Below, piece after piece: positions 26,496 to 39,265 of a DNA stretch of 40,054 nt. Below the pieces are notes generated by a model. It was given only the letters and a program-made list of their open reading frames with translations. It did no database searches and had not been told where the DNA came from. The translations under genes and the position numbers were made by a program. The DNA comes from a bacterium (lineage in GTDB: Bacteria; Patescibacteriota; Microgenomatia; UBA12405), in NCBI GenBank assembly GCA_021817905.1, contig JAKAFM010000010.1:1-40054 (forward strand), read 5' to 3'. Each line of letters starts with the position of its first letter. Position 1 is the stretch's first letter.

Positions 26496-27545
26496 GTGAT
26501 CAAGAAACTCTTAGCCTCTATTCCATTCAAAGTCGATTCTTTCCATGAAATAGATTTTCAAGGCGATCCGGGTGCTTATTATTATAAAATCTTAAGTCAA
26601 AATAATAGTTTTTTTATAAAGATTTACGAACGGACCAGGGAAACTGATTTTAATAATGAGGTGTCTAATTACGATTTGTTGGCAGAAAAAATCAAGAACT
26701 TACCCAAAAGACATTATTATTCAAAATACGACGAATATAATTATATAATTTACGACTTTATTGACGGCGAATCATTGTACTCAAAAAACAATAACGGAGA
26801 ATTAAATCAGGAATATTACACGAAATTAATCAAAAACATTGCTCAAACTCAGTCAATTATCAACAGCGATCTAAAAACTCAGACAACTCTGGAATGGTTT
26901 AAAAAAGAGTTTATTATTAATGTCCAAGGAAACAGTTCAATTAAAAGTGAGTTGTTTGAAGCATATAAACAAGTAGACCGCATCGTCCAAGACATAGTAG
27001 CCAAGTATCCGGGAATTTATTCAGACAGAAACCCGAGGAATGTTCTTATTTCAAAAACAGGACAATTATTTAATATCGACTTTGAAGTTCTCTTTAAATG
27101 TTCACCAATCTTTGATTTCATTAAGTTAACAAGGAATGGTACTGACTTTATAGAGCCCCCAAGTGTTTTTTCCGAGAAACTACATATATTTAGCAGACAA
27201 CAAGAATTGGCATTATTTAAGAAATTTATCAAAGACATTTATAATAACCCAGAACATAATTTATCTGTAGTTAGTGCCGAGTATTTATCGTACATATACG
27301 ATACTTGCTCTCTATTCGTTCACTTGTTGTATATTGGATACTGTTCATCAGAACTATCTCGTCAGGAGAATACAGTTAAATATAATCGTCAAAAATACCA
27401 CTTGTTAAGTGCTATTGATTCTGTTGATAAAATTATAAACAGTGCAAATAATCGGGAGAAAAGTAGCTTTATGAGCTTAAAATTATTACTAAAAAAAATC
27501 TGCTTAAATCAAAATGGAGTATTATCACTTAATAACCAATTATGA
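26496..27545 (+). CDS. phosphotransferase / APH-like small-molecule kinase
   Basis: YIIYDFIDGESL hinge, IYSDRNPRNVLI catalytic loop (D-x4-N), FNIDFEVLF (D-x-E). Confidence 0.75.
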   Translation: MIKKLLASIPFKVDSFHEIDFQGDPGAYYYKILSQNNSFFIKIYERTRETDFNNEVSNYDLLAEKIKNLPKRHYYSKYDEYNYIIYDFIDGESLYSKNNNGELNQEYYTKLIKNIAQTQSIINSDLKTQTTLEWFKKEFIINVQGNSSIKSELFEAYKQVDRIVQDIVAKYPGIYSDRNPRNVLISKTGQLFNIDFEVLFKCSPIFDFIKLTRNGTDFIEPPSVFSEKLHIFSRQQELALFKKFIKDIYNNPEHNLSVVSAEYLSYIYDTCSLFVHLLYIGYCSSELSRQENTVKYNRQKYHLLSAIDSVDKIINSANNREKSSFMSLKLLLKKICLNQNGVLSLNNQL

Positions 27546-28444
27546 TAAACATTAACGACCTAAATAAATGTATTGAACAATCAAAAGATAGAAATGATCC
27601 AACTTATACCAAGCTTGCCACCAAGTTAATTGTGGAGTGTCAAGGCAAAAGCGAAGCTGAAATTATTAAAAATTTTGAATTAGTGGATGTCCCAGTAGGA
27701 AAAGAAGTAAGTTATCTAATCCTTAAATTCGGTCTTCTACTAATTAACCTAATTGGCAATAGACACTCTGAGGATATCCTCACAGCCTATACGGTCGGAT
27801 CAGTATCCGGAGGATACTGCAAAAATGGCAAACAACAAAGAATCGTATTCGAATATGTGCCCACTGAAAATCATACTTTGTCAGGACTGAGAATTACTCC
27901 CACAGGAATGGTTATGCCGGATCTTGATTTAGAGATAATAGTTAGATCTAATTCTTCTGAAGCCGTAAAGAAAACTGTTGTTGAGATATATGAAAATTTG
28001 AAAATAAAATACCTTGAGTTTTTAGATATTCCCGTTGATATCAGAATTATTGATCAAATAGACCTTGATTATTATTTGCATGTATCTGAAAAGCCCAGTT
28101 ATTCCATTTTTAGACTTCTCTTTGGTCCACCTCTTTGTTTGTATAATCAAACTGAATTTAGTCAAATACTCGATAGGGCAACAAAACTAATTCTTGATAA
28201 TCACAACCAAATTGATGAAGTGCCAGAATGGAGGATGTGGAATGCATATATGGATGAGATCAAAATGATTAAAGGGCTTACTAAACGAGAAGAACGATTT
28301 TTCCCCGCCGAAGAGTTAAAAACAATGGGTGACTTATATTGGTTTTATTCATTAAGAATAAATACTCCGAACGAAAAGAATCCGTCAAATTTTCCGCCAG
28401 ATGCATCCAGTAAATCATTCAAAATGAAGTTTGGATATCATTAG
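27542..28444 (+). CDS. hypothetical protein, divergent nucleotidyltransferase-like
   Basis: YTVGSVSGG... MVMPDLDLEIIV (GS..., DxD) followed by VDIRIID. Confidence 0.5.
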   Translation: MININDLNKCIEQSKDRNDPTYTKLATKLIVECQGKSEAEIIKNFELVDVPVGKEVSYLILKFGLLLINLIGNRHSEDILTAYTVGSVSGGYCKNGKQQRIVFEYVPTENHTLSGLRITPTGMVMPDLDLEIIVRSNSSEAVKKTVVEIYENLKIKYLEFLDIPVDIRIIDQIDLDYYLHVSEKPSYSIFRLLFGPPLCLYNQTEFSQILDRATKLILDNHNQIDEVPEWRMWNAYMDEIKMIKGLTKREERFFPAEELKTMGDLYWFYSLRINTPNEKNPSNFPPDASSKSFKMKFGYH

Positions 28445-28494: not shown

Positions 28495-29301
28495 TTAAAT
28501 GTAATTGTCCAGAACCACTTTGTGGGGAATCGAGTGTTTTATTAAGTCATCTTTCAGTTTAGATAATCCGACATAAATGCCTGGGTGACATTCACTCATT
28601 TTCTTTTTGCTTCCACAAACACATTTTTTGTAACCTTTGATATTTTTCCTCTTTTTGAGCATTTGTCTAACAATGTAGTTTTCTTCAGAACGAATTATCA
28701 CAGAAAATACTTTTTCCACCTCCTCTCTTGAATGAGAATCTGTCTCTCCGTATTTCTCGATAATTCCTAATACGCCGTGAGCATATTCTCCCCAAGGCCA
28801 GTGTCGGTATTTTTGAAAAAAAGACTGTTCATAAAAAAATGGAATGACCATCTGATTCATAAAATCACTCAACTTGAATCCCGAAGAGAAATATTCATCC
28901 TCAGAGCCTTCGACACACAGGCAGGCTGCCTTACTTGGATTAATATGAAGATCTGACAGATCAATTAAATTACTCTTGGCGAAGTTCTCAATTTTCCCAC
29001 CGACTTCAAACACTTGTGGTAGTTTTGAGGAGGTGGTGGGAGCAAATATTATCTTTATCTGGTATTCGTCCTCAATATTGATTCCACTACCTTGCTGAAT
29101 AGTCTGAGAGCCGATTAAAAATGAGTTATCCGAATGGTTATAGCTCATGGCAAACTTCAATTTACCTTGAATTTCATCCACCCCATTAGGTCGTTTACTG
29201 GCTGTCAATGCAGGATAGTATTTATTGATCCAATCTAGGTCTTGGGCGGTAAGCTTGAGATCAAAAGCTTCTCCATGGTTTCGGTGGTGAATGTCCGACA
29301 T
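28495..29301 (-). CDS. E2-like (ubiquitin-conjugating-fold) CBASS accessory protein with C-terminal SEC-C motif; start re-assigned to ATG 29301
   Basis: GKLKFAMSY...YQIKIIFAP...PQVFEVGGKI...LHINPSKAACLCVEG resembles E2 beta-meander + HPN..G.iCL; C-terminal KKCVCGSKKKMSECH. The ORF-track start at 29520 lies deep inside the upstream CD-NTase. Confidence 0.65.
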   Translation of the reverse strand: MSDIHHRNHGEAFDLKLTAQDLDWINKYYPALTASKRPNGVDEIQGKLKFAMSYNHSDNSFLIGSQTIQQGSGINIEDEYQIKIIFAPTTSSKLPQVFEVGGKIENFAKSNLIDLSDLHINPSKAACLCVEGSEDEYFSSGFKLSDFMNQMVIPFFYEQSFFQKYRHWPWGEYAHGVLGIIEKYGETDSHSREEVEKVFSVIIRSEENYIVRQMLKKRKNIKGYKKCVCGSKKKMSECHPGIYVGLSKLKDDLIKHSIPHKVVLDNYI

Positions 29302-30310
29302 AGACGTTTTGGGTAAATTGCTTATTATCTTCAAGCTCCTCGTTAAATATTGTTCTCCAGTAAGAAAGGGATTCCTCAATATTCCCATTAGACTCCTGCT
29401 CGACTGCATTGGTAATCGTTTCATGAATAGATTGAAGTTTTCCCTTAATCGTCTCTCTTGTCCAATCGTCCCAATCCTCAATATAATCATCCACCTTATT
29501 ATCCGGATTAGCAGGATCAATTATCGAAGCTTTGTCTAATAGACTCCCGGCCTTTTGGAAAAATTTGTGCAAACCATCACTATAAGAAGTGATTTTTTCT
29601 CCCTCGAGAATTTTGGCTGCCAGCAATTCTAAATGGAATGATCTAAGTTTTATTGGCTCGCTGTTAAATTCCTTTCTTTTAATATATTTGATCAATCTAG
29701 CTATTTTCTTAAATCGCTTTTTACCGCTAAATTCCGTGTCATCATTCACCTTGTTTATATATTCATAGTGGGTTTTTGGGTTAGAGGTGATGTATTTATC
29801 TTCTTTGCCTTCTTCTGCGTCAGGAATTTTGTATGCCGTCTCATCTTCGGTTTCGAAAGCGGGAATTACATCGATGCTAAAATTATCGGTGTACTTGACG
29901 GTAACTGAGTGGCGCTGACTTTTTACTTCGATATTATTTTGACCCTCGTAGATCTTCTCTAAAGCCGTCTTAAGCTTTTCAATTAAATCTACCGGAGTAA
30001 TCAAGTCGTCCAAGTCCTCACCCCTGTACTCTTGGCTGTCTAGGACTAAAAAGAGATCCACGTCTTTTGGTGGTCTGATCATGGTGTTACGGCGATAAGA
30101 CCCAGTAAGAAAATAGGAGGGGAGATTTTCCTCATCATCTGTAGCTAAAACTTTCATTTCTTCCTTCAGCTTCTCTACTAGATCTTTGTAGGTGCCCATG
30201 ATTAAACAATAATCACACCCATCCTCTGATCCCTTGCATTCGCCGTCACATAATTTAACGAGATTTATTTTTTGGGATAAATAATTATCAAAAAATTCTT
30301 CTATGGTCAT
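29261..30310 (-). CDS. CD-NTase (SMODS-type CBASS oligonucleotide cyclase)
   Basis: FLTGSYRRNTMIRPPKDVDLFLVLD (GS...DxD) and third carboxylate FSIDVIPAF. Confidence 0.88.
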   Translation of the reverse strand: MTIEEFFDNYLSQKINLVKLCDGECKGSEDGCDYCLIMGTYKDLVEKLKEEMKVLATDDEENLPSYFLTGSYRRNTMIRPPKDVDLFLVLDSQEYRGEDLDDLITPVDLIEKLKTALEKIYEGQNNIEVKSQRHSVTVKYTDNFSIDVIPAFETEDETAYKIPDAEEGKEDKYITSNPKTHYEYINKVNDDTEFSGKKRFKKIARLIKYIKRKEFNSEPIKLRSFHLELLAAKILEGEKITSYSDGLHKFFQKAGSLLDKASIIDPANPDNKVDDYIEDWDDWTRETIKGKLQSIHETITNAVEQESNGNIEESLSYWRTIFNEELEDNKQFTQNVYVGHSPPKPWRSF

Positions 30311-30311
30311 A

Positions 30312-30851
30312 TTACTTTTTGGAATAACCAGTAGTTATAAGTGCGGTGACAATGTCATTTAGTATCCGTCCTCGAAAGTTGGCGACAGCAACATTTCTGC
30401 CATTGTCTAATTTAGCCATGATATCGTCCGGTATAAAGCCGCCGCTTTTGGGAGCGTAGACAATCATTGCCTCCCCATCCTTTTTAAGATTTTTGATATC
30501 GATTACCTTTTCTCCCCAATCCGGCCAGTAGACCAGAAATAATGTAGCTTTTTCAGATTTACCAAAATCGTCTTCTTTGCAGATCTTGGTTATATTTTTA
30601 TCTGAAAAAAGCCCGGAGTCGAGCAGAAGGTCAGTCATGCTTTGAAGATTGTCATTTTTTGCGAATATTGCAATTCTTCTCTTAGCAAAGCCGTTACCAA
30701 ACCGTAAAATTGCTGGCAGAATGCCTTTTATCCAAGCAATGATTGCCCAAATTATCATTAAAAAAAGTATGATGGTGCTCGGGTAACCTAATAAATCCAA
30801 GAAATCCTTAATTAGGCTAATTAAATCTGTCATAGTCTTGCCTCCAACCAT
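30312..30851 (-). CDS. membrane-anchored putative CBASS effector (N-terminal TM, cytosolic alpha/beta domain)
   Basis: YPSTIILFLMIIWAIIAWIKGILPAIL hydrophobic segment, then RRIAIFA...LFLVYWPDW...AMIVYAPKSGG...VAVANFRGRILNDIVTALITT. Confidence 0.6.
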   Translation of the reverse strand: MVGGKTMTDLISLIKDFLDLLGYPSTIILFLMIIWAIIAWIKGILPAILRFGNGFAKRRIAIFAKNDNLQSMTDLLLDSGLFSDKNITKICKEDDFGKSEKATLFLVYWPDWGEKVIDIKNLKKDGEAMIVYAPKSGGFIPDDIMAKLDNGRNVAVANFRGRILNDIVTALITTGYSKK

Positions 30852-31096
30852 TCATGAGCAGTGACATCCATGAAGGCAGAGTAACTACCGGCGGAAAGTT
30901 GCGCCACAAAGACTTGGTCATTTTGGTCGATAACAGTCATTAAACTGTCCCTAATACCGTCGGCGGACAAATTTGTGCTGACCAACCATAAGTTTTGAAG
31001 CGGATGGAGGGTTTGTCCTAAATTCCTAATACTTTGATAGAGGGAGTCATAGTTCTGGCCAACCCTCCTAAGATCATATGTTATAGCGTAAATCAT
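30830..31096 (-). CDS. Cas2-like (SinR-annotated family) ferredoxin-fold protein
   Basis: MIYAITYDLRRVGQNYDSLYQSIRNLGQTLHPLQNLWLVSTNLSADGIRDSLMTVIDQNDQVFVAQLS; no cas1 or CRISPR array in window. Confidence 0.65.
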   Translation of the reverse strand: MIYAITYDLRRVGQNYDSLYQSIRNLGQTLHPLQNLWLVSTNLSADGIRDSLMTVIDQNDQVFVAQLSAGSYSAFMDVTAHEWLEARL

Positions 31097-31191: not shown

Positions 31192-31213
31192 AAACAGTGT
31201 TGCAATACTGTTT
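31192..31213. promoter_or_regulatory. near-perfect palindromic operator AAACAGTGTTGCAATACTGTTT
   Basis: 20/22 positions match the reverse complement; located between divergent CBASS operon and XRE gene, just upstream of TATAAT (31223-31228). Confidence 0.7.
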
Positions 31214-31235: not shown

Positions 31236-31592
31236 ATGAAGATTAGTCTTGAAAATCTAAGTCTTATATTAAAAGAAAGGCGAGGAGGTAGAGGAATTAG
31301 AGAAGTTGCCAAAGAAATTAAAATAAGTCCGGCAACTTTATCACGGATAGAACAAGGGAAACAACCAGATCTTGATACTTTTTCCAAAATTTGTGCATGG
31401 TTAAACGTTGACCCCGGAGACATTTTGGGGGTTGTGAACACTGAAACCAACTATACTCAGCAAACGACTTGCGACCAAAGAGTAATGGTTCATTATAAAG
31501 CTAAACAGACCATTAGTCCTGACACTGCAAAAAAACTTTCTGAGCTCATAATTCAGGTGCAACAATCAATTCAAGATGGATTGATTAAATGA
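31236..31592 (+). CDS. XRE-family HTH transcriptional regulator
   Basis: GIREVAKEIKISPATLSRIEQGKQPDLDTFSKICAWLNVDPGDILG. Confidence 0.92.
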   Translation: MKISLENLSLILKERRGGRGIREVAKEIKISPATLSRIEQGKQPDLDTFSKICAWLNVDPGDILGVVNTETNYTQQTTCDQRVMVHYKAKQTISPDTAKKLSELIIQVQQSIQDGLIK

Positions 31593-32179
31593 GAGGTGAT
31601 GTAACCAACACAACAACATATTTTGAAAGAGGATTCAAAAGTTGGTGTGAGAACACCGCAGTTTCCATTAGGAGTCGCCTTGGTCTTTCCAAGTTTGAAT
31701 CATTAGATCCGTGGTTATTAGCACAACATCTTAAAGTCGCAATTCTATTTCCTTCAAATATTCCAGGCTTAACGAATGAAGTCGCCGATTACTTAAAGTC
31801 TTCTGACGGAGATGAATGGTCAGCAGTCACTATAATTTACTTAGGTATCACCGTTGTCGTAATAAATCAAAATCATTCTGTCGCTCGCCAATCTACAGAC
31901 ATAATGCACGAGCTAGCCCACTTAATTAGGGCTCATCAACCAGTTCAACACTTTACGAATGATTCCGGGTTCGTAATACGTTCGTTTAATAAATCCCAAG
32001 AAGATGAGGCGGATTGGCTGGCAGCTACGTTACTACTCCCACGTACAGCTTTATTTCAGATTGCAAGATCCCATTACGACATTGATCAAGTTTGTTCAGA
32101 ATTTAAAGTAAGTAAAATGCTATTAAAATACAGACTTAATGTAACAGGACTGGCAAGACAGTATCCGGTAACCAATTAA
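31589..32179 (+). CDS. ImmA/IrrE-family metallopeptidase
   Basis: DIMHELAHLIRAH (HExxH) ... EDEADWLAATLLLPR. Confidence 0.93.
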   Translation: MRGDVTNTTTYFERGFKSWCENTAVSIRSRLGLSKFESLDPWLLAQHLKVAILFPSNIPGLTNEVADYLKSSDGDEWSAVTIIYLGITVVVINQNHSVARQSTDIMHELAHLIRAHQPVQHFTNDSGFVIRSFNKSQEDEADWLAATLLLPRTALFQIARSHYDIDQVCSEFKVSKMLLKYRLNVTGLARQYPVTN

Positions 32180-32395: not shown

Positions 32396-33724
32396 ATGAA
32401 CAATACCAACAAACTTCAAATCGTCCTTGTTAATATTTCCGACCTTCACCATCCCGAAGTTAATCCCCGAAAATGGTCACCGGAGCAAACCGAGAATCTT
32501 AAGGAAAGTATTAAACGCTTTGGGCTTGTAGACCCAATCATTGTCAATTCTTTTGAAGAAAGGCGAGGAGTAATTATTGGTGGCAATTTCCGTTTTGAAG
32601 TTGCCAAACAACTCGGCTTTACTGAAGTCCCTGTAGTATATGTAAACATTTCTGATTTGGAGAAAGAGAAAGAACTGAATCTCCGTCTCAATAAAAATAC
32701 AGGCGAGTTTGATCTCAAACTATTATCCGAGTTCGATGAATCAATTCTTAAAGACATTGGATTTAATTCAGAAGAACTTGATGACATTTTCAATATCGAA
32801 ACTACCCCCGAGGAATTTGATTTAGCCAAAGAATTAAAGAAACTGAAAATCGATAAAGTGGAAACCCGGACGGGTGATCTGTGGCAACTTGGGGATTCGA
32901 GATTGTTAGTGGGCGACTCAACTAAAACCGAAGACATATTAGAACTCATGGATAACGAAAAAGCAAACATGTGCCTAACGGACCCTCCATATATCCTTGA
33001 CTACTTAAGGGGCAAACGAAAAGGCAATCCGACTGATGGTTTTGGTCAAAAGAGAAACCGTCGTTATATCGGCACTGACTCATTGCCTGATAATTTTACT
33101 GAGCTATGGATGGCAAATATTGCCAAGATTCAAAAAGAAAGCTTCTCCATTATTGTCTATGAAAATTGGAAGAATCTTAGAACTATCTGGGGTGAAATGG
33201 AAAAGTATTGGCGAGTAAAAAATATGATCGTTTGGCATTTACCTAACCGTACCCAAGGGTTTTCAGCTAAGTACAAATTCTTTAGTAAACACGACATTGC
33301 CATGGTTGGAGCCTCGCCTAACGCCGATATCGAATTTAATATGGAGCCGGAGACTGATGGCCTTCAGCAAGAATACGAAACCGCTCTCTATGCCATCAGT
33401 GGCAAACCTCAATGGGAGGGTTATGAAAAAGGTAAAAAGGTTCAGCCGACCGATTTTATTGAATTCAAAGCCTCAGATGAAAAAAGTTCCGGTCAGGGGA
33501 TTATCTTTGGTACTAAGCCAACTGAAATCCTAATCCCTTACATTAAGGTATTAACTAAAAGAGGGGATTTAATCATCGAGCCGTTCGGAGGCAGTGGAAG
33601 CACCCTAATTGCTGCTACCAAAATGAAACGGCGTTGTTACATCATGGAAAAATGTCCCACCTACGCCGAGGTAATTAAAAAGCGTTGGGAAAAACTTACT
33701 GGGTTAAAGGCTTTAAAAATATGA
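32396..33724 (+). CDS. ParB-like N-domain fused to DNA (N6/N4) methyltransferase, phage type
   Basis: ParB-like DLHHPEVNPRKWSPEQTENLKESIKRFGLVDPIIVN..GVIIGGNFRFEVAKQLG; LTDPPYILDYL; EPFGGSGSTLIAA. Confidence 0.9.
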   Translation: MNNTNKLQIVLVNISDLHHPEVNPRKWSPEQTENLKESIKRFGLVDPIIVNSFEERRGVIIGGNFRFEVAKQLGFTEVPVVYVNISDLEKEKELNLRLNKNTGEFDLKLLSEFDESILKDIGFNSEELDDIFNIETTPEEFDLAKELKKLKIDKVETRTGDLWQLGDSRLLVGDSTKTEDILELMDNEKANMCLTDPPYILDYLRGKRKGNPTDGFGQKRNRRYIGTDSLPDNFTELWMANIAKIQKESFSIIVYENWKNLRTIWGEMEKYWRVKNMIVWHLPNRTQGFSAKYKFFSKHDIAMVGASPNADIEFNMEPETDGLQQEYETALYAISGKPQWEGYEKGKKVQPTDFIEFKASDEKSSGQGIIFGTKPTEILIPYIKVLTKRGDLIIEPFGGSGSTLIAATKMKRRCYIMEKCPTYAEVIKKRWEKLTGLKALKI

Positions 33725-34131
33725 AAAGCAAAACCCAAATTCTTGAACTCCTAAAAACTACTCCAATCGTCCAAGTTGCTTGTCAAAAATCAGGTGTCAG
33801 TCGGGCCACCTACTATCGATGGCGCGACAAGGATAAAAAATTCAAAGAACAATCGGACTTGGCACTAAAAGAAGGGATTGCCTTCATTAACGACCTTGCC
33901 GAAAGTCAGCTTCTCACATCAATTAAGGAAAAGAACATGACTGCCATTATTTTTTGGCTCAAAAACCGTCATTCGGGTTATGACACCACAAAACTTCAAA
34001 TATCTGCTGACAATTTGAACAAAGACGAGACATTGACTCCAGAGCAACAGCAATTAGTTAACAAAGCACTACAAATGGCTTCAATTTTACCTACTACAGG
34101 AGATATTACTGATGAAACTACCTCAAAGTGA
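33721..34131 (+). CDS. small terminase / phBC6A51-type HTH protein
   Basis: ACQKSGVSRATYYRWRDKDKKFKEQSDLALKEGIAFINDLAESQLL; ATGA coupling with methyltransferase, position upstream of TerL. Confidence 0.75.
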   Translation: MKSKTQILELLKTTPIVQVACQKSGVSRATYYRWRDKDKKFKEQSDLALKEGIAFINDLAESQLLTSIKEKNMTAIIFWLKNRHSGYDTTKLQISADNLNKDETLTPEQQQLVNKALQMASILPTTGDITDETTSK

Positions 34132-35659
34132 AACGGACATTTTTGAAGCCTTGATGAGCGATCAAAAAATCCGCCGGGAGGTTTGTCGTCAGAGCCATTA
34201 CTGGTTCTTTCATGTCTATTTTAGTCACTATATTTTCCATAAAACCGCTGATTTTCAAAAACGAATTTTTGAAATAACTGAAAATGACAGCTTAAAAATG
34301 TCTACCATTGTTTCTTTTCGAGGTTCAGCCAAGTCGACCATCGTTTCTCTTTCTTATCCTATTTGGTCAATCCTAGGCAGGCAATCTAAAAAGTATCCAA
34401 TCATTATTGGTCAAACTCAAAACCAAAGTCGTCAGATGTTAAAGAATATCAAAAGCGAATTTGAGTTTAATGAATTACTAATCAAAGACTTTGGTCCATT
34501 TGAAAACAGCTCCGATTGGCGCTCCAATACTTTAGTTATTCCTAAAATTGGCGCTAGAATCACTGCCTTATCAACAGGTGAAAGTATTAGAGGGCTTCGC
34601 CATCATCAGTATCGCCCCGACTTAATTATTTGCGATGATATTGAGGATTTATCAACAGTCAAATTTCGGGAAAGTCGGGATAAAAACTATAACTGGCTGA
34701 TGGGAGATGTAATCCCGATTGGCGACATTAATACTAAGACGGTCATCATTGGCAATCTTTTGCATGAGGATTCCTTGATGATGAGACTAAAAGAGCATCT
34801 TCAGATTAAAAAGGACATGGTAGGAACCTATGACGAGTTCCCTCTGATAGACGTGAGTGGAAGATGTTTATGGCCAGACAAATTTCCTACATCAAGAGAA
34901 ATAGACGAGCTTAAACTCAAGATTCCAGATCGAGTGACTTTTGAACGAGAGTACCTTCTTCATATTATTGCCGATGGCAATCAAGTCATTAATAGAAGTT
35001 GGATTAAGTATTATGACCCTTCCGATATTCCCAATCCTGATGTTGTCAAACCCAGAATGATTGTTGTTGGTCTCGATTTGGCAATTTCTGAAAAATCCAC
35101 CGCTGATTTTACCGCCATGATTCCTGCCTGGGTCTATGGTTATGGTGATGAATTCAAAGCATTTATTTTACCTCAAATTGTTAATATGAGATTAAACTTT
35201 ACTCAAACGAAAGATAAGGTCAAAGATCTTAAGCAATTAATAAATAAGCCCTATGACCAAGTCAAATTTTATTGTGAATCTGTAGGGTATCAGCTCTCAC
35301 TTGTCCAACAATTGTCAGTCGAGAATATATTAATCGAAGGAGTAAATATAGGTAGCACTGACAAGCGTAGTCGACTCTGTCTTACCTCAGCTTATATCGA
35401 AGCCGGAAAAATTCTCTTCCCTAAACATGGCGCCGAAGAATTAATTGATCAATTAGTAAACTTTGGTGTCGAAAAACATGATGATTTAGTCGATGCTTTT
35501 AGTTTGGTTATCAATAAAGTCATTGAAACCGATCAAGCCTTTACCCGTTCAAACAACCCTCCGCGACCCCCAAAGTCTCATTGGGGATATGACATTCTTG
35601 GTGATTACAGAGACTTATCAAAACCTATAACCGCCGGAATATGGAATGAAAAACTTTAA
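34112..35659 (+). CDS. terminase large subunit
   Basis: VSFRGSAKSTIVSLSYPIW (Walker A-like), LIICDDIEDL (Walker B), IVVGLDLAISEKSTADFTAMI nuclease motif. Confidence 0.9.
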   Translation: MKLPQSETDIFEALMSDQKIRREVCRQSHYWFFHVYFSHYIFHKTADFQKRIFEITENDSLKMSTIVSFRGSAKSTIVSLSYPIWSILGRQSKKYPIIIGQTQNQSRQMLKNIKSEFEFNELLIKDFGPFENSSDWRSNTLVIPKIGARITALSTGESIRGLRHHQYRPDLIICDDIEDLSTVKFRESRDKNYNWLMGDVIPIGDINTKTVIIGNLLHEDSLMMRLKEHLQIKKDMVGTYDEFPLIDVSGRCLWPDKFPTSREIDELKLKIPDRVTFEREYLLHIIADGNQVINRSWIKYYDPSDIPNPDVVKPRMIVVGLDLAISEKSTADFTAMIPAWVYGYGDEFKAFILPQIVNMRLNFTQTKDKVKDLKQLINKPYDQVKFYCESVGYQLSLVQQLSVENILIEGVNIGSTDKRSRLCLTSAYIEAGKILFPKHGAEELIDQLVNFGVEKHDDLVDAFSLVINKVIETDQAFTRSNNPPRPPKSHWGYDILGDYRDLSKPITAGIWNEKL

Positions 35660-35872
35660 TTAGAAATCAAATAACTCACTTAGAGTCACACCCAAAGCCT
35701 TGGCTATTTTGTATGCAGTTTTTATAGAAATGTTTCGTCCTTGCTCAATGTCCCAAAAATATGAACGATGTAGTCCTGCAACTTCGGCCAATTTCTCCTG
35801 CGTCATATTCTTCTCTTTTCTGAGATCCTCAATTCTTTGACTTAGTTTTTGGTAAATAACATTGTAATTCAT
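35660..35872 (-). CDS. XRE-family HTH regulator, 70 aa
   Basis: KNMTQEKLAEVAGLHRSYFWDIEQGRNISIKTAYKIAKALGVTLSELF. Confidence 0.93.
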   Translation of the reverse strand: MNYNVIYQKLSQRIEDLRKEKNMTQEKLAEVAGLHRSYFWDIEQGRNISIKTAYKIAKALGVTLSELFDF

Positions 35873-35916
35873 AGCTACTTCTCCAGTAGCCTACAAAATC
35901 CCCAGTTTTTTCTTTA

Positions 35917-35930
35917 CCAGATATATCTGG
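35917..35930. promoter_or_regulatory. perfect 14-bp palindrome CCAGATATATCTGG (candidate XRE operator)
   Basis: Between divergent XRE and UDG-like genes; half-site CCAGATATA recurs at 35972-35980. Confidence 0.65.
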
Positions 35931-35967
35931 CTTTTACTCAAATTTCCATGTAATATCCTGGTAAATA

Positions 35968-36648
35968 ATGCCAGATATAACTAACTTTTTAGAAAATCCA
36001 TGGGAAGCACTCCCTAAAACGTCACCTCATATTCTTGAAGACGACCTTAATGCCTTAAGTCAATTTAATAAAACCCCTGAAAAATTAGGTTGGCACACCG
36101 AACTTCTTCCTTGTCCTTTTCTTGGGAACTACCAAAAAGCCTCAATCATATTTTTATGTCTAAATCCTGGTTATATAGAGACAAAGGATGTGGTTGACTA
36201 CAACAATGACTATTACTTCCAAGAAAGCCTAAAAACTTTGACTATGCAAAGCAACACTCCATTTTTCTGCTTAAATCCAATGGTCAATTTTTCTGGAGCT
36301 TATATTTGGTGGACAAAAATTCTTAAGCGATTGATTGATCAATTCGGATGGAAACGGCTATCCGAGAAATTAATGTGTTTACAATTTTTGGCTTATCATT
36401 CAAAAACTTACACCAACCCACCGTGCACGCTTCCTTCACAAAGTTTCACCTTTGAGATATTAAGACAAGCTATAAAGGATCAAAAGACAATAGTAATAAT
36501 GAGAAGTGAAAAACTATGGATTAAGGCCGTTCCTGAGTTGAAAGACTATCCTTACATCGAACTTAAAAATTATCGGAGGCCATTTCTAAGTGAAAGAAAC
36601 ATGGGCAAAGATAATTACGAAAACTTAATCAGATGTCTTAAATGCTAA
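35968..36648 (+). CDS. uracil-DNA-glycosylase-superfamily-like protein
   Basis: ASIIFLCLNPGYIETKD, TPFFCLNPMVNFSGAYIWWTKILKRL, IVIMRSEKLWIKAVPEL. Confidence 0.55.
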   Translation: MPDITNFLENPWEALPKTSPHILEDDLNALSQFNKTPEKLGWHTELLPCPFLGNYQKASIIFLCLNPGYIETKDVVDYNNDYYFQESLKTLTMQSNTPFFCLNPMVNFSGAYIWWTKILKRLIDQFGWKRLSEKLMCLQFLAYHSKTYTNPPCTLPSQSFTFEILRQAIKDQKTIVIMRSEKLWIKAVPELKDYPYIELKNYRRPFLSERNMGKDNYENLIRCLKC

Positions 36649-37145
36649 GGCATAAACATATATTGATATTCATCCCCTGGACCAAAGTAGTGAGACTTGT
36701 TAAGTAAAGTATCGGCCATTTCCCATGCCGTCATATTCTCAGATATCCGATAACTCGCGACGATATCAATCGAACCATCCTTACCGACAGATAGCGCGCC
36801 AGGATTACCAGCCGTTGTGTCTTTAGTATGTTCCAATGCGTACTTTAATGCTTTCTCGCTTCGAATAAAGCCGTAATATTGAAGGTTACTAATTATGGCC
36901 TCTAAAGTCGAGCCTGCTCCTGGTCTAAAATCAACCGTATCGCTTTGCTTTTGTCGTTCCAGATCTGCCTGAGTAAATCGCAATTTCTCGACAAAATAAT
37001 CCTCAACTTTCTTCGGTGATTGCCAAATTTTTCCGGGAGCTTTGAAATCATTGGCTGGAATTCGATTCTGAAAGTAGACAAAACCTGCAATCCCAGATAG
37101 CAAGATAATTAAAAATGCCAAAGCAATGATTTTATTAAGTTTCAT
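36645..37145 (-). CDS. exported/membrane-anchored protein, weak MltG N-domain resemblance
   Basis: N-terminal TM, FRPGAGSTLEAIISNLQYYGFIRSEKALKYAL. Confidence 0.5.
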   Translation of the reverse strand: MKLNKIIALAFLIILLSGIAGFVYFQNRIPANDFKAPGKIWQSPKKVEDYFVEKLRFTQADLERQKQSDTVDFRPGAGSTLEAIISNLQYYGFIRSEKALKYALEHTKDTTAGNPGALSVGKDGSIDIVASYRISENMTAWEMADTLLNKSHYFGPGDEYQYMFMP

Positions 37146-37147
37146 GC

Positions 37148-37855
37148 TTAATTATTTATACAATATTTTTCTAATAATCGATCGTATGTTGATTTTATCT
37201 CCTCGTCCTTTTTAACAGCATTAGCTATGGCATCATCTAATGATCCCTTTGTAGGCACAACTCGGTTTTGATCGTTATCTCTCCTCCAGTTTTGGCATTC
37301 AATCGACTCAGGCTTATATTTTCTACCTGACCAATTAATTTTAGCGTCAGAATGGCAATCTTGATCCATCCTCTCCCTAAAAACATCATTTTCAGTTTTA
37401 CCTATTTCATCATATAAACTTTTCAATTGACTCCCTGCGCAAATTACCATTCCATTTTTGCTTGGCATCCCGTATTGTTTTTTTAAATCCAGAGCTAAAC
37501 GGGGGATGGGTAAAGTTCTATATTTTTGGTAATACTCTTGTTCGTATTTATTTAATTGTGCTTTGTCGTTCAATATTTGATTTATAAGCCCCTTGTCCGT
37601 GATTCCAAAAAATTTACCTAATATTTCTTCATTAATGACTGATTTCGGTTTAGCTATGGTTGGTTTTGTGATTGCTGTAGGTTTTACTGTAGAAGTCGGT
37701 TCCTTGTCTATATCTGTCGGGATATTACTTGGAATCTGAATTATTGTCGGGGTTAGATTTACTTTAATCTCAGGTGTATTGTGACCAATGCCGAATAAAC
37801 TAGAGAATGCCAAAAATATCGATGCAAAAAAGGCTTTCATGGCGTATTTTACCAC
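37148..37855 (-). CDS. exported hypothetical protein
   Basis: Signal peptide, Thr/Pro-rich linker, C-terminal domain with several Cys. Confidence 0.55.
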   Translation of the reverse strand: MVKYAMKAFFASIFLAFSSLFGIGHNTPEIKVNLTPTIIQIPSNIPTDIDKEPTSTVKPTAITKPTIAKPKSVINEEILGKFFGITDKGLINQILNDKAQLNKYEQEYYQKYRTLPIPRLALDLKKQYGMPSKNGMVICAGSQLKSLYDEIGKTENDVFRERMDQDCHSDAKINWSGRKYKPESIECQNWRRDNDQNRVVPTKGSLDDAIANAVKKDEEIKSTYDRLLEKYCINN

Positions 37856-37903
37856 TAATTCATCTAGCTAGATTTCTATAAACCATGCGGTACAGTCATA
37901 TCA

Positions 37904-39265
37904 ATGGATAAACCAAAGACTGGAAAGACACGAGAAACAGAACAAATCAAATATTGTCTGTATGCTCGTAAATCAACCGAATCGGATGAACGTCAAGCCA
38001 TGTCGATTGATTCTCAAATTAAAGAAATGACCGATCTCGCCGTTCGGGATGGATTAATAATCAAAGAAGTTAGGCACGAAAGTCATTCGGCTAAATCATC
38101 AGGACTTAGGCCAGTATTTAATCAATTGCTTATCGATATCAAAAACGGAGTTTTTAACGCCATTCTTACTTGGGCTCCCGACAGATTAAGTAGAAACGCA
38201 GGGGATCTGGGAACGTTAGTTGATCTGATGGATCAAGGTAAATTAGCGACCATTCGAACTTTTTCCCAATCATTTTCCAATAATCCCAACGAGAAATTCT
38301 TACTAATGATTTTATGTTCACAAGCCAAGCTAGAAAATGATAATCGGGGGATCAATGTTAAAAGAGGCCTTCGTGCCAAATGCGAAGCGGGGTGGCGGCC
38401 AGGATCTGCCCCCGTGGGTTATATCAATCGATTAACCGAAAATCGAATCGCTTATGTTGATATTGATCCGGAAAGGGCTCCAATCGTCAAAGAAATTTTT
38501 GAAAGAGTTGTGAATCAAGGCCAAAGTGGTCGAACTATCAAGTATTGGCTTGATAAAACCGGATTTAGAACTCGAGTTGGTAAACGAATGGCAATAAGCG
38601 AAGTTTATCGTGTACTAAGAAAACACTTTTATTACGGTATGTTCGAATTCCCAGAAGAAAGTGGCAAATGGTATCAAGGCAAGCATCCACCAATAATTAC
38701 CAAAGAATTATTTGATCAAGCTCAAAGAATTTTGGCTGTTCCTCCTAAAGATTGGAGTAAAAAAGACTTTCCATTCAAAATGCTCCTAAAATGTGGCCAA
38801 TGCGGTGCCAGTATCACCGCCGAAGAGAAATATAAAAAGTTAATTAACGGAAAATTCAAACGACATGTTTACTATCACTGTACTCGATCACTCGATTACG
38901 ATTGTGACGAACCTTATATCACCGAAGACGATTTGGTCAGACAATTATTAGTCAAAATAAATGAAATTGAATTCGATCAAAAGGCAGTTGATGAAAAAAT
39001 GAAGCAAGAGATTGAGCGATATCATCGGCTAAGATCTGATGTGCTTCATCAGGAAATGTTTGAGCAACAAATGGAAGTAATGGACTATCCAATCATTAAA
39101 GAAAAATCGCCTGAGCAAAGAGTTAGAGAATATGTAATTCATGTCCTCAAAACAGGCTTCTCAGAAGAAAAGCAGGAAATATTGGCATTATTCAAAACAA
39201 GGTTTATTTTGAAAGACAAACAAATTAATATTTCCCCGAGGTCAGAGATCAACCTCGGGGAATAA
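37904..39265 (+). CDS. large serine recombinase (resolvase/recombinase/zinc-ribbon)
   Basis: YCLYARKSTESDERQAMSIDSQIKEM, ILTWAPDRLSRNAGDLGTLVDLMD, zinc ribbon LLKCGQCGASITAE...YYHCTRSLDYDC. Confidence 0.94.
   Translation: MDKPKTGKTRETEQIKYCLYARKSTESDERQAMSIDSQIKEMTDLAVRDGLIIKEVRHESHSAKSSGLRPVFNQLLIDIKNGVFNAILTWAPDRLSRNAGDLGTLVDLMDQGKLATIRTFSQSFSNNPNEKFLLMILCSQAKLENDNRGINVKRGLRAKCEAGWRPGSAPVGYINRLTENRIAYVDIDPERAPIVKEIFERVVNQGQSGRTIKYWLDKTGFRTRVGKRMAISEVYRVLRKHFYYGMFEFPEESGKWYQGKHPPIITKELFDQAQRILAVPPKDWSKKDFPFKMLLKCGQCGASITAEEKYKKLINGKFKRHVYYHCTRSLDYDCDEPYITEDDLVRQLLVKINEIEFDQKAVDEKMKQEIERYHRLRSDVLHQEMFEQQMEVMDYPIIKEKSPEQRVREYVIHVLKTGFSEEKQEILALFKTRFILKDKQINISPRSEINLGE
39232..39262 (+). terminator. 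perfect 11-bp hairpin TTCCCCGAGGT-n9-ACCTCGGGGAA at the 3' end of the recombinase CDS
   Basis: Perfect inverted repeat ending immediately before the TAA stop. Confidence 0.5.

Follow-up and report, generated by a model that had tools for sequence, protein, structure and literature searches.

An E2-only CBASS contains no E1, which leaves open how its E2 selects a substrate and activates it. The class, also called type II-short, combines a CD-NTase, an E2 without E1 or JAB, and an effector. An operon of this kind is found in the stretch of 40,054 nucleotides analyzed here (the window).

An E2-only CBASS operon in a small genome

The features of the locus are listed in Table 1.

Table 1. Genes, motifs, and candidate sites of the locus, with positions in the window
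Feature	Position	Strand	Evidence
E2-like conjugating enzyme, 268 aa, with SEC-C zinc motif at C-terminus	28495..29301	-	PADLOC E2 PDLC00872, E=1.2e-35; residues invariant across 7 homologues
SEC-C motif C227-x-C229-x-S231...C238-H239 in E2	28585..28623	-	invariant in E2 alignment (7 homologues); profile matches SecA SEC-C structures 1tm6/1sx0
H119-I-N...C127, candidate E2 catalytic cysteine motif	28921..28947	-	H119 and C127 invariant in E2 alignment
CD-NTase (cyclic oligonucleotide synthase), 349 aa	29261..30310	-	PADLOC PDLC00823, E=1.5e-50; Pfam SMODS, 1.2e-19; PDB CD-NTases, E=2e-14
CD-NTase C-terminal tail KPWRSF, proposed E2 recognition/conjugation tag	29264..29281	-	PW tail in 12/12 E2-SEC-C partners, 0/20 E2-less CD-NTases
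CD-NTase active-site stretch GSYRRNTMIRPPKDVD	30056..30103	-	translation; aligns with GSY...DID of 6p8u
1TM effector, 174 aa	30312..30836	-	PADLOC PDLC00664, E=2.5e-56
Cas2-fold protein, 88 aa, first operon gene	30830..31096	-	phrog_1090, E=3.9e-21; AlphaFold and Foldseek
Palindrome AAACAGTGTTGCAATACTGTTT, 22 bp, divergent intergenic region, candidate repressor operator	31192..31213		2/100 shuffles as good
HTH (Xre/CI type) repressor, CapH position	31236..31592	+	Pfam HTH_3, 1.9e-11; capH, E=0.0032
ImmA/IrrE-type M78 metallopeptidase, CapP-like	31589..32179	+	Pfam Peptidase_M78, 2.6e-16; capP, E=7.7e-10

Judged from its sequence, the operon is a genuine type II-short (E2-only) CBASS; its effector is of a known class, and its host is unusual. 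The initial annotation had described four minus-strand genes with a 22-nt overlap, a 1-nt gap, and a 41-nt overlap. The four ORFs were recovered, and the ORF coordinates gave exactly 1 nt between the 1TM and CD-NTase genes and 41 nt of overlap between the CD-NTase and E2 genes. The 22-nt overlap requires the alternative 1TM start at 30851. Homologues favor the ATG at 30836, so the Cas2-fold and 1TM genes overlap by 7 nt. CD-NTase, E2, and effector profiles all matched, and no E1 or JAB/Cap3 domain was detected with PADLOC and Pfam in the neighboring ORFs scanned, in agreement with the E2-only class first proposed. The system reaches beyond 28495–31096, to 32179, through a divergent HTH and ImmA/M78 pair that looks like a CapH/CapP switch. 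At the E2 end, the operon adjoins a gene (27542–28444) whose 300-aa product shows the NTase-like pattern GSVSGG...DLDLEI and had no NCBIfam match.

The host genome comprises 817 kb in 31 contigs and is 97% complete; sampled genomes of the phylum span 0.5–2 Mb. At 0.82 Mb, it probably belongs to a CPR/Patescibacteria bacterium, as had been supposed. The added argument that CPR bacteria are generally poor in defense systems proved weak. CD-NTases were present in 21 of 380 genomes of the phylum, and a groundwater survey reports that CPR genomes have fewer defense systems each but a higher density of them (PMC12259885).

CD-NTase and 1TM effector

The CD-NTase signature that had been read from the sequence is intact in the translation, with GSY...DVD and a third Asp in SIDV. 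The closest solved CD-NTases are 6p8u and 6p82 (2e-14), followed by E. coli CdnC (6.8e-10). A sequence search of viral contigs gave no match to the window CD-NTase. Its N-terminus (30203–30250) carries a cysteine cluster, C-x3-C-x6-C-x2-C (CDGECKGSEDGCDYC), which is a possible zinc site; the cluster is shared with genome G376 and absent from G237.

The effector had been considered unassignable. It belongs to the known 1TM class of PADLOC, with one N-terminal transmembrane helix and a soluble domain. Such effectors were found in 8 of the 380 phylum genomes, a CD-NTase adjoins 1TM in all other genomes of the sample with a 1TM match, and G237 has the same 1TM–CD-NTase–E2 gene order as the window. 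A sequence search of genome contigs gave no match to the 1TM protein. Other CBASS operons with 1TM or TM effectors, from the phylum and from one viral contig (L011, L012, L013, L016, L018, and L208), have an apparent LexA-type repressor gene upstream in place of HTH–ImmA.

E2 with a SEC-C motif

For the fourth gene, both the E2-like assignment and the SEC-C motif of the initial annotation were borne out by the profile match and the invariant residues (Table 1). As the single-sequence AlphaFold model reached only pLDDT 33, the E2 identity rests on profiles and motifs. The PADLOC E2 profile gave matches in 269 of 380 phylum genomes. Among the matches listed, a strong E2 of the window kind was present in four of the 380 (the window genome, G237, G210, and G352), and G376 had one weak but real match. 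The other listed matches were short, mostly in SecA-sized frames, and were discarded as the SEC-C motif of SecA. The E2 alignment had no match in viral contigs, and E2 queries gave no phage record.

A Pro-Trp tail on the partners of the E2

The gene directly upstream of the E2–SEC-C gene ended in a Pro-Trp (PW) tail at all 12 intact loci examined, a modest sample that was gathered by E2 similarity, from which unseen E2 subfamilies could differ, and that counts a Vibrio gigantis locus added once the pattern had been noticed. The tailed partners were nine CD-NTases, one Pycsar cyclase, one Thoeris ThsB TIR protein, and one MBL protein. Besides the tail of the window, those of the CD-NTases were KPWCSL (G237), QPWSY (G352), KPWRN (Ligilactobacillus), KPWCRS (Haliscomenobacter), KPWKNI (Aliarcobacter), KPWGDTY (Cytobacillus), SPWSR (Enterococcus), and DPKPWFKQ (Vibrio gigantis). 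The other three were RPWLKRS (Chryseobacterium Pycsar cyclase), KPWQRG (Runella MBL-fold protein), and APWGDNANGRR (G210 ThsB TIR). Past the Trp, 2–8 residues follow, and the final residue is not conserved.

Two loci were left out of this count. In G376, the E2 is a weak variant and the tail, SASWGESK, is not PW. In Carnobacterium (L038), the gene immediately ahead of the E2 gene encodes an IS30 transposase, and the E2 is preceded by no synthase. The G376 locus (L197 1369–3274) has a CD-NTase 47% identical to that of the window, and its variant E2 has two SEC-C-like cysteine clusters.

The tail was rare outside E2 partners. For CD-NTases alone, it was present in 9 of 9 with E2 versus 0 of 20 without E2 (all with a complete C-terminus), giving a Fisher p of about 1e-7 with relatedness ignored. 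Of 438 background ORFs with a length of 250 aa or more, E2 partners set aside, one had it. That the tail arises merely from overlap with the start codon of the E2 gene was rejected, because its proline is encoded by each of the four possible codons and it is kept in several genes that do not overlap the E2 gene.

The partner families are unrelated: SMODS, ThsB_TIR (PADLOC ThsB, 1.5e-60), Lactamase_B, and an annotated adenylate/guanylate cyclase. The last, from Chryseobacterium, had no Pfam match and is adjoined by a PycTM effector. Its plasmid (L036 1282–5654) carries PycTM and the cyclase, then E2–SEC-C, with a divergent sigma70–hypothetical–ImmA module upstream. In G210 (L072 296–2034), the gene before E2–SEC-C encodes a ThsB-type TIR protein with an extended C-terminus; a small membrane protein is encoded upstream, and no CD-NTase is present. 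This locus is like a Thoeris operon with an added E2.

The PW tail is the most informative feature of the locus and raises its interest. From its sequence pattern, we read it as a putative portable tag for E2 recognition or conjugation. Since no conserved residue ends the tails, the tail would have to be processed before it can be conjugated, unless it serves purely for docking. We give even weight for and against the wider reading, in which a single-E2 conjugation module has been swapped between CBASS, Pycsar, Thoeris, and an MBL system with the PW tail as its portable substrate tag. We found no description of the tail in the CBASS literature covered by our search, the main E2-only study (Yan et al. 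2024) lying outside it.

Cas2-fold gene, HTH–ImmA pair, and mobile element

The leading gene had been called Cas2-like, and the fold was confirmed. The AlphaFold model had a pLDDT of 91.5, the top Foldseek matches were Cas2 structures (E about 1e-3, probability 1.00), and the TM-score to BPSL1038, a reported Cas2/VapD-family DNase (PMC10491678), was 0.71. D8 is invariant in 33 sequences, and D57 and D60 are conserved. The family, phrog_1090, is annotated as 'SinR' or CRISPR-like in phages. No Cas1 match was found in the 97%-complete genome.

Most Cas2-fold homologues stand alone or face an ImmA protease gene. For 11 of 17 genomic homologues, an ImmA gene lies 0.5–2 kb upstream on the opposite strand, and three further phylum genomes have the same opposite-strand arrangement. 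On an Actinomycetota plasmid, the Cas2-fold gene is co-directional with sigma70–hypothetical–ImmA. In viral contigs, the ImmA profile detected the link in 2 of 88 Cas2-fold loci; this profile misses the CI–DUF955 pair that adjoins the Cas2-fold gene in Enterococcus phages. The Cas2-fold searches used subsets of a diverse 14-sequence alignment. In three alphaproteobacterial loci (L032 2912, L044 4910, and L049 4909), shared palindromes, CTCGGACA...TGTCCGAG or TCGGACA...TGTCCGA, lie in the intergenic region between the sigma70–ImmA module and the Cas2-fold gene and are a candidate operator.

The M78 gene of the window is the only one found in the genome. By analogy, it and the HTH gene probably form a CapH/CapP-like DNA-damage regulator. 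The 22-bp palindrome between the divergent genes overlaps a promoter-like site on the plus strand. Beyond the M78 gene, the window (32396–39265) encodes a ParB-type DNA methylase, TerS, TerL, and a serine recombinase. No capsid genes were visible in this region, which is like a satellite element. A related element in G234 has a recombinase 49% identical and a TerL 44% identical to those of the window, together with TerS, methylases, HTH–ImmA, and a Cas2-fold gene. It carries no CBASS, so the CBASS of the window looks like cargo. In G034, a methylase 56% identical to that of the window lies near a 1TM CBASS. The product of 35968–36648 weakly resembles Brig1, a DNA glycosylase that acts against phage (NCBIfam E=0.003).

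Proposed mechanism and alternatives

We consider it quite likely that the locus is a DNA-damage-inducible E2-only CBASS of a probable CPR bacterium, carried next to a mobile element with serine recombinase and terminase genes. As in CapH/CapP, the HTH protein would repress the divergent operon, and ssDNA caused by phage would activate the ImmA protease to cleave it. The derepressed operon would then supply the Cas2-fold protein, the 1TM effector, the CD-NTase, and the E2. Through C127, the E2 may recognize the KPW tail of the CD-NTase and process it or form a thioester. It could then set cyclase activity by conjugating the cyclase, either to itself or to lysines on targets. The existence and conservation of the tail were observed; the conjugation chemistry is modeled on reports of E2-only and Cap2 systems. 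The CD-NTase would presumably make a cyclic oligonucleotide. Its binding to the soluble domain of 1TM would permeabilize the membrane and kill the infected cell.

The regulatory step has a competing explanation, in which HTH–ImmA is the lysogeny switch of the neighboring element, incidental to a CBASS that has its own constitutive promoter. HTH–ImmA pairs also act as phage/ICE lysogeny switches (ImmR–ImmA), and the CBASS-free element of G234 has such a pair divergent from its Cas2-fold gene, with recombinase, TerL, and TerS. However, the CBASS genes of the window are co-directional with the Cas2-fold gene and overlap it, which places them with it in one divergent transcription unit, and Cereibacter has a similar layout with CD-NTase and SAVED. 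We judge this explanation the less probable one, with a real share of plausibility. The same Cereibacter plasmids, where a Cas2-fold gene leads a CD-NTase–SAVED operon, bear on whether the Cas2-fold protein is a working CBASS component, for example a nuclease accessory or a nucleotide regulator. Its place as first gene, overlapping the effector gene, would fit such a role. Yet the window and the Cereibacter plasmid were the only examined loci where a Cas2-fold gene adjoins a CD-NTase; none of 105 further Cas2-fold loci, some redundant, had a CD-NTase within about 5 kb, and the Cas2-fold gene is missing from the seven remaining phylum-sample genomes that have a 1TM CBASS. The Cas2-fold gene was rejected as a CBASS hallmark, and a role in CBASS is improbable. 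The initial annotation had counted it with the operon; probably it is no CBASS part and belongs to the mobile element or ImmA switch.

The E2 step could also be purely structural: in place of a conjugation site, the PW tail would be a docking peptide at the C-terminus, keeping the synthase bound to an E2 that acts as chaperone or inhibitor. The unconserved final residue and the variable stretch past the Trp are what a docking peptide would allow. H119 and C127 are nevertheless invariant, as expected of a catalytic E2, and the E2-only system of Yan et al. 2024 reportedly shows C-terminal processing and conjugation of its cyclase. We find docking alone rather unlikely and prefer a tail that the E2 recognizes for conjugation. 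That the whole operon is a decayed relic, as its mobile-element surroundings without visible capsid genes might suggest, is very improbable: all four frames are open, no catalytic residue has been lost, and the PW tail has persisted despite an identity of only 27–36% between the window CD-NTase and the other PW-tailed CD-NTases that align with it.

Implications and comparison with known systems

The presence of one conserved tail in four unrelated enzyme families suggests a sequence code open to direct mutation or transplantation. Annotators could use it to predict which enzymes an E2 controls, and it points to one conjugation module common to three second-messenger defense systems. The pairing of Cas2-fold and ImmA genes helps explain 'Cas2' genes without CRISPR on many mobile elements.

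Like other type II-short CBASS, the locus has a CD-NTase directly before an E2-only protein and a membrane effector. It differs in its CPR-type host, its Cas2-fold leader gene, and the PW tail on its cyclase. Krueger et al. (2024) cite cyclase–cyclase conjugation for a type II-short system, that of Yan et al. 2024 (PMC11153139). Type II CBASS with Cap2 (E1–E2) and Cap3 resembles the locus in that the cyclase C-terminus is the expected substrate of the E2 cysteine, whereas the window has neither E1 nor Cap3. Cap2 systems need a terminal Gly/Ala, in place of PW plus 2–8 residues; in the available text of Jenson et al. (2023), this residue is conserved only in cyclases with full Cap2 and Cap3, operons without Cap2/Cap3 or without an E2 domain show no C-terminal conservation, and no treatment of E2-only operons was found (PMC10097602).

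CapH and CapP form a DNA-damage switch, established by experiment, that is encoded next to immune operons (PMC13373217). The window shares the divergent HTH gene and M78 peptidase gene beside an immune operon, with the difference that its HTH matches capH weakly. With the Cas2/VapD/BPSL1038 family, the Cas2-fold protein shares the ferredoxin-like fold and the conserved Asp8; it differs in the lack of Cas1 in the genome, in its conserved D57 and D60, and in being encoded by a family of mobile-element genes that stand alone. Where an E2 is added to a Pycsar or Thoeris (ThsB) operon, E2–SEC-C likewise comes after a PW-tailed second-messenger enzyme, but there the synthase is a cyclase or a TIR enzyme and not a CD-NTase.
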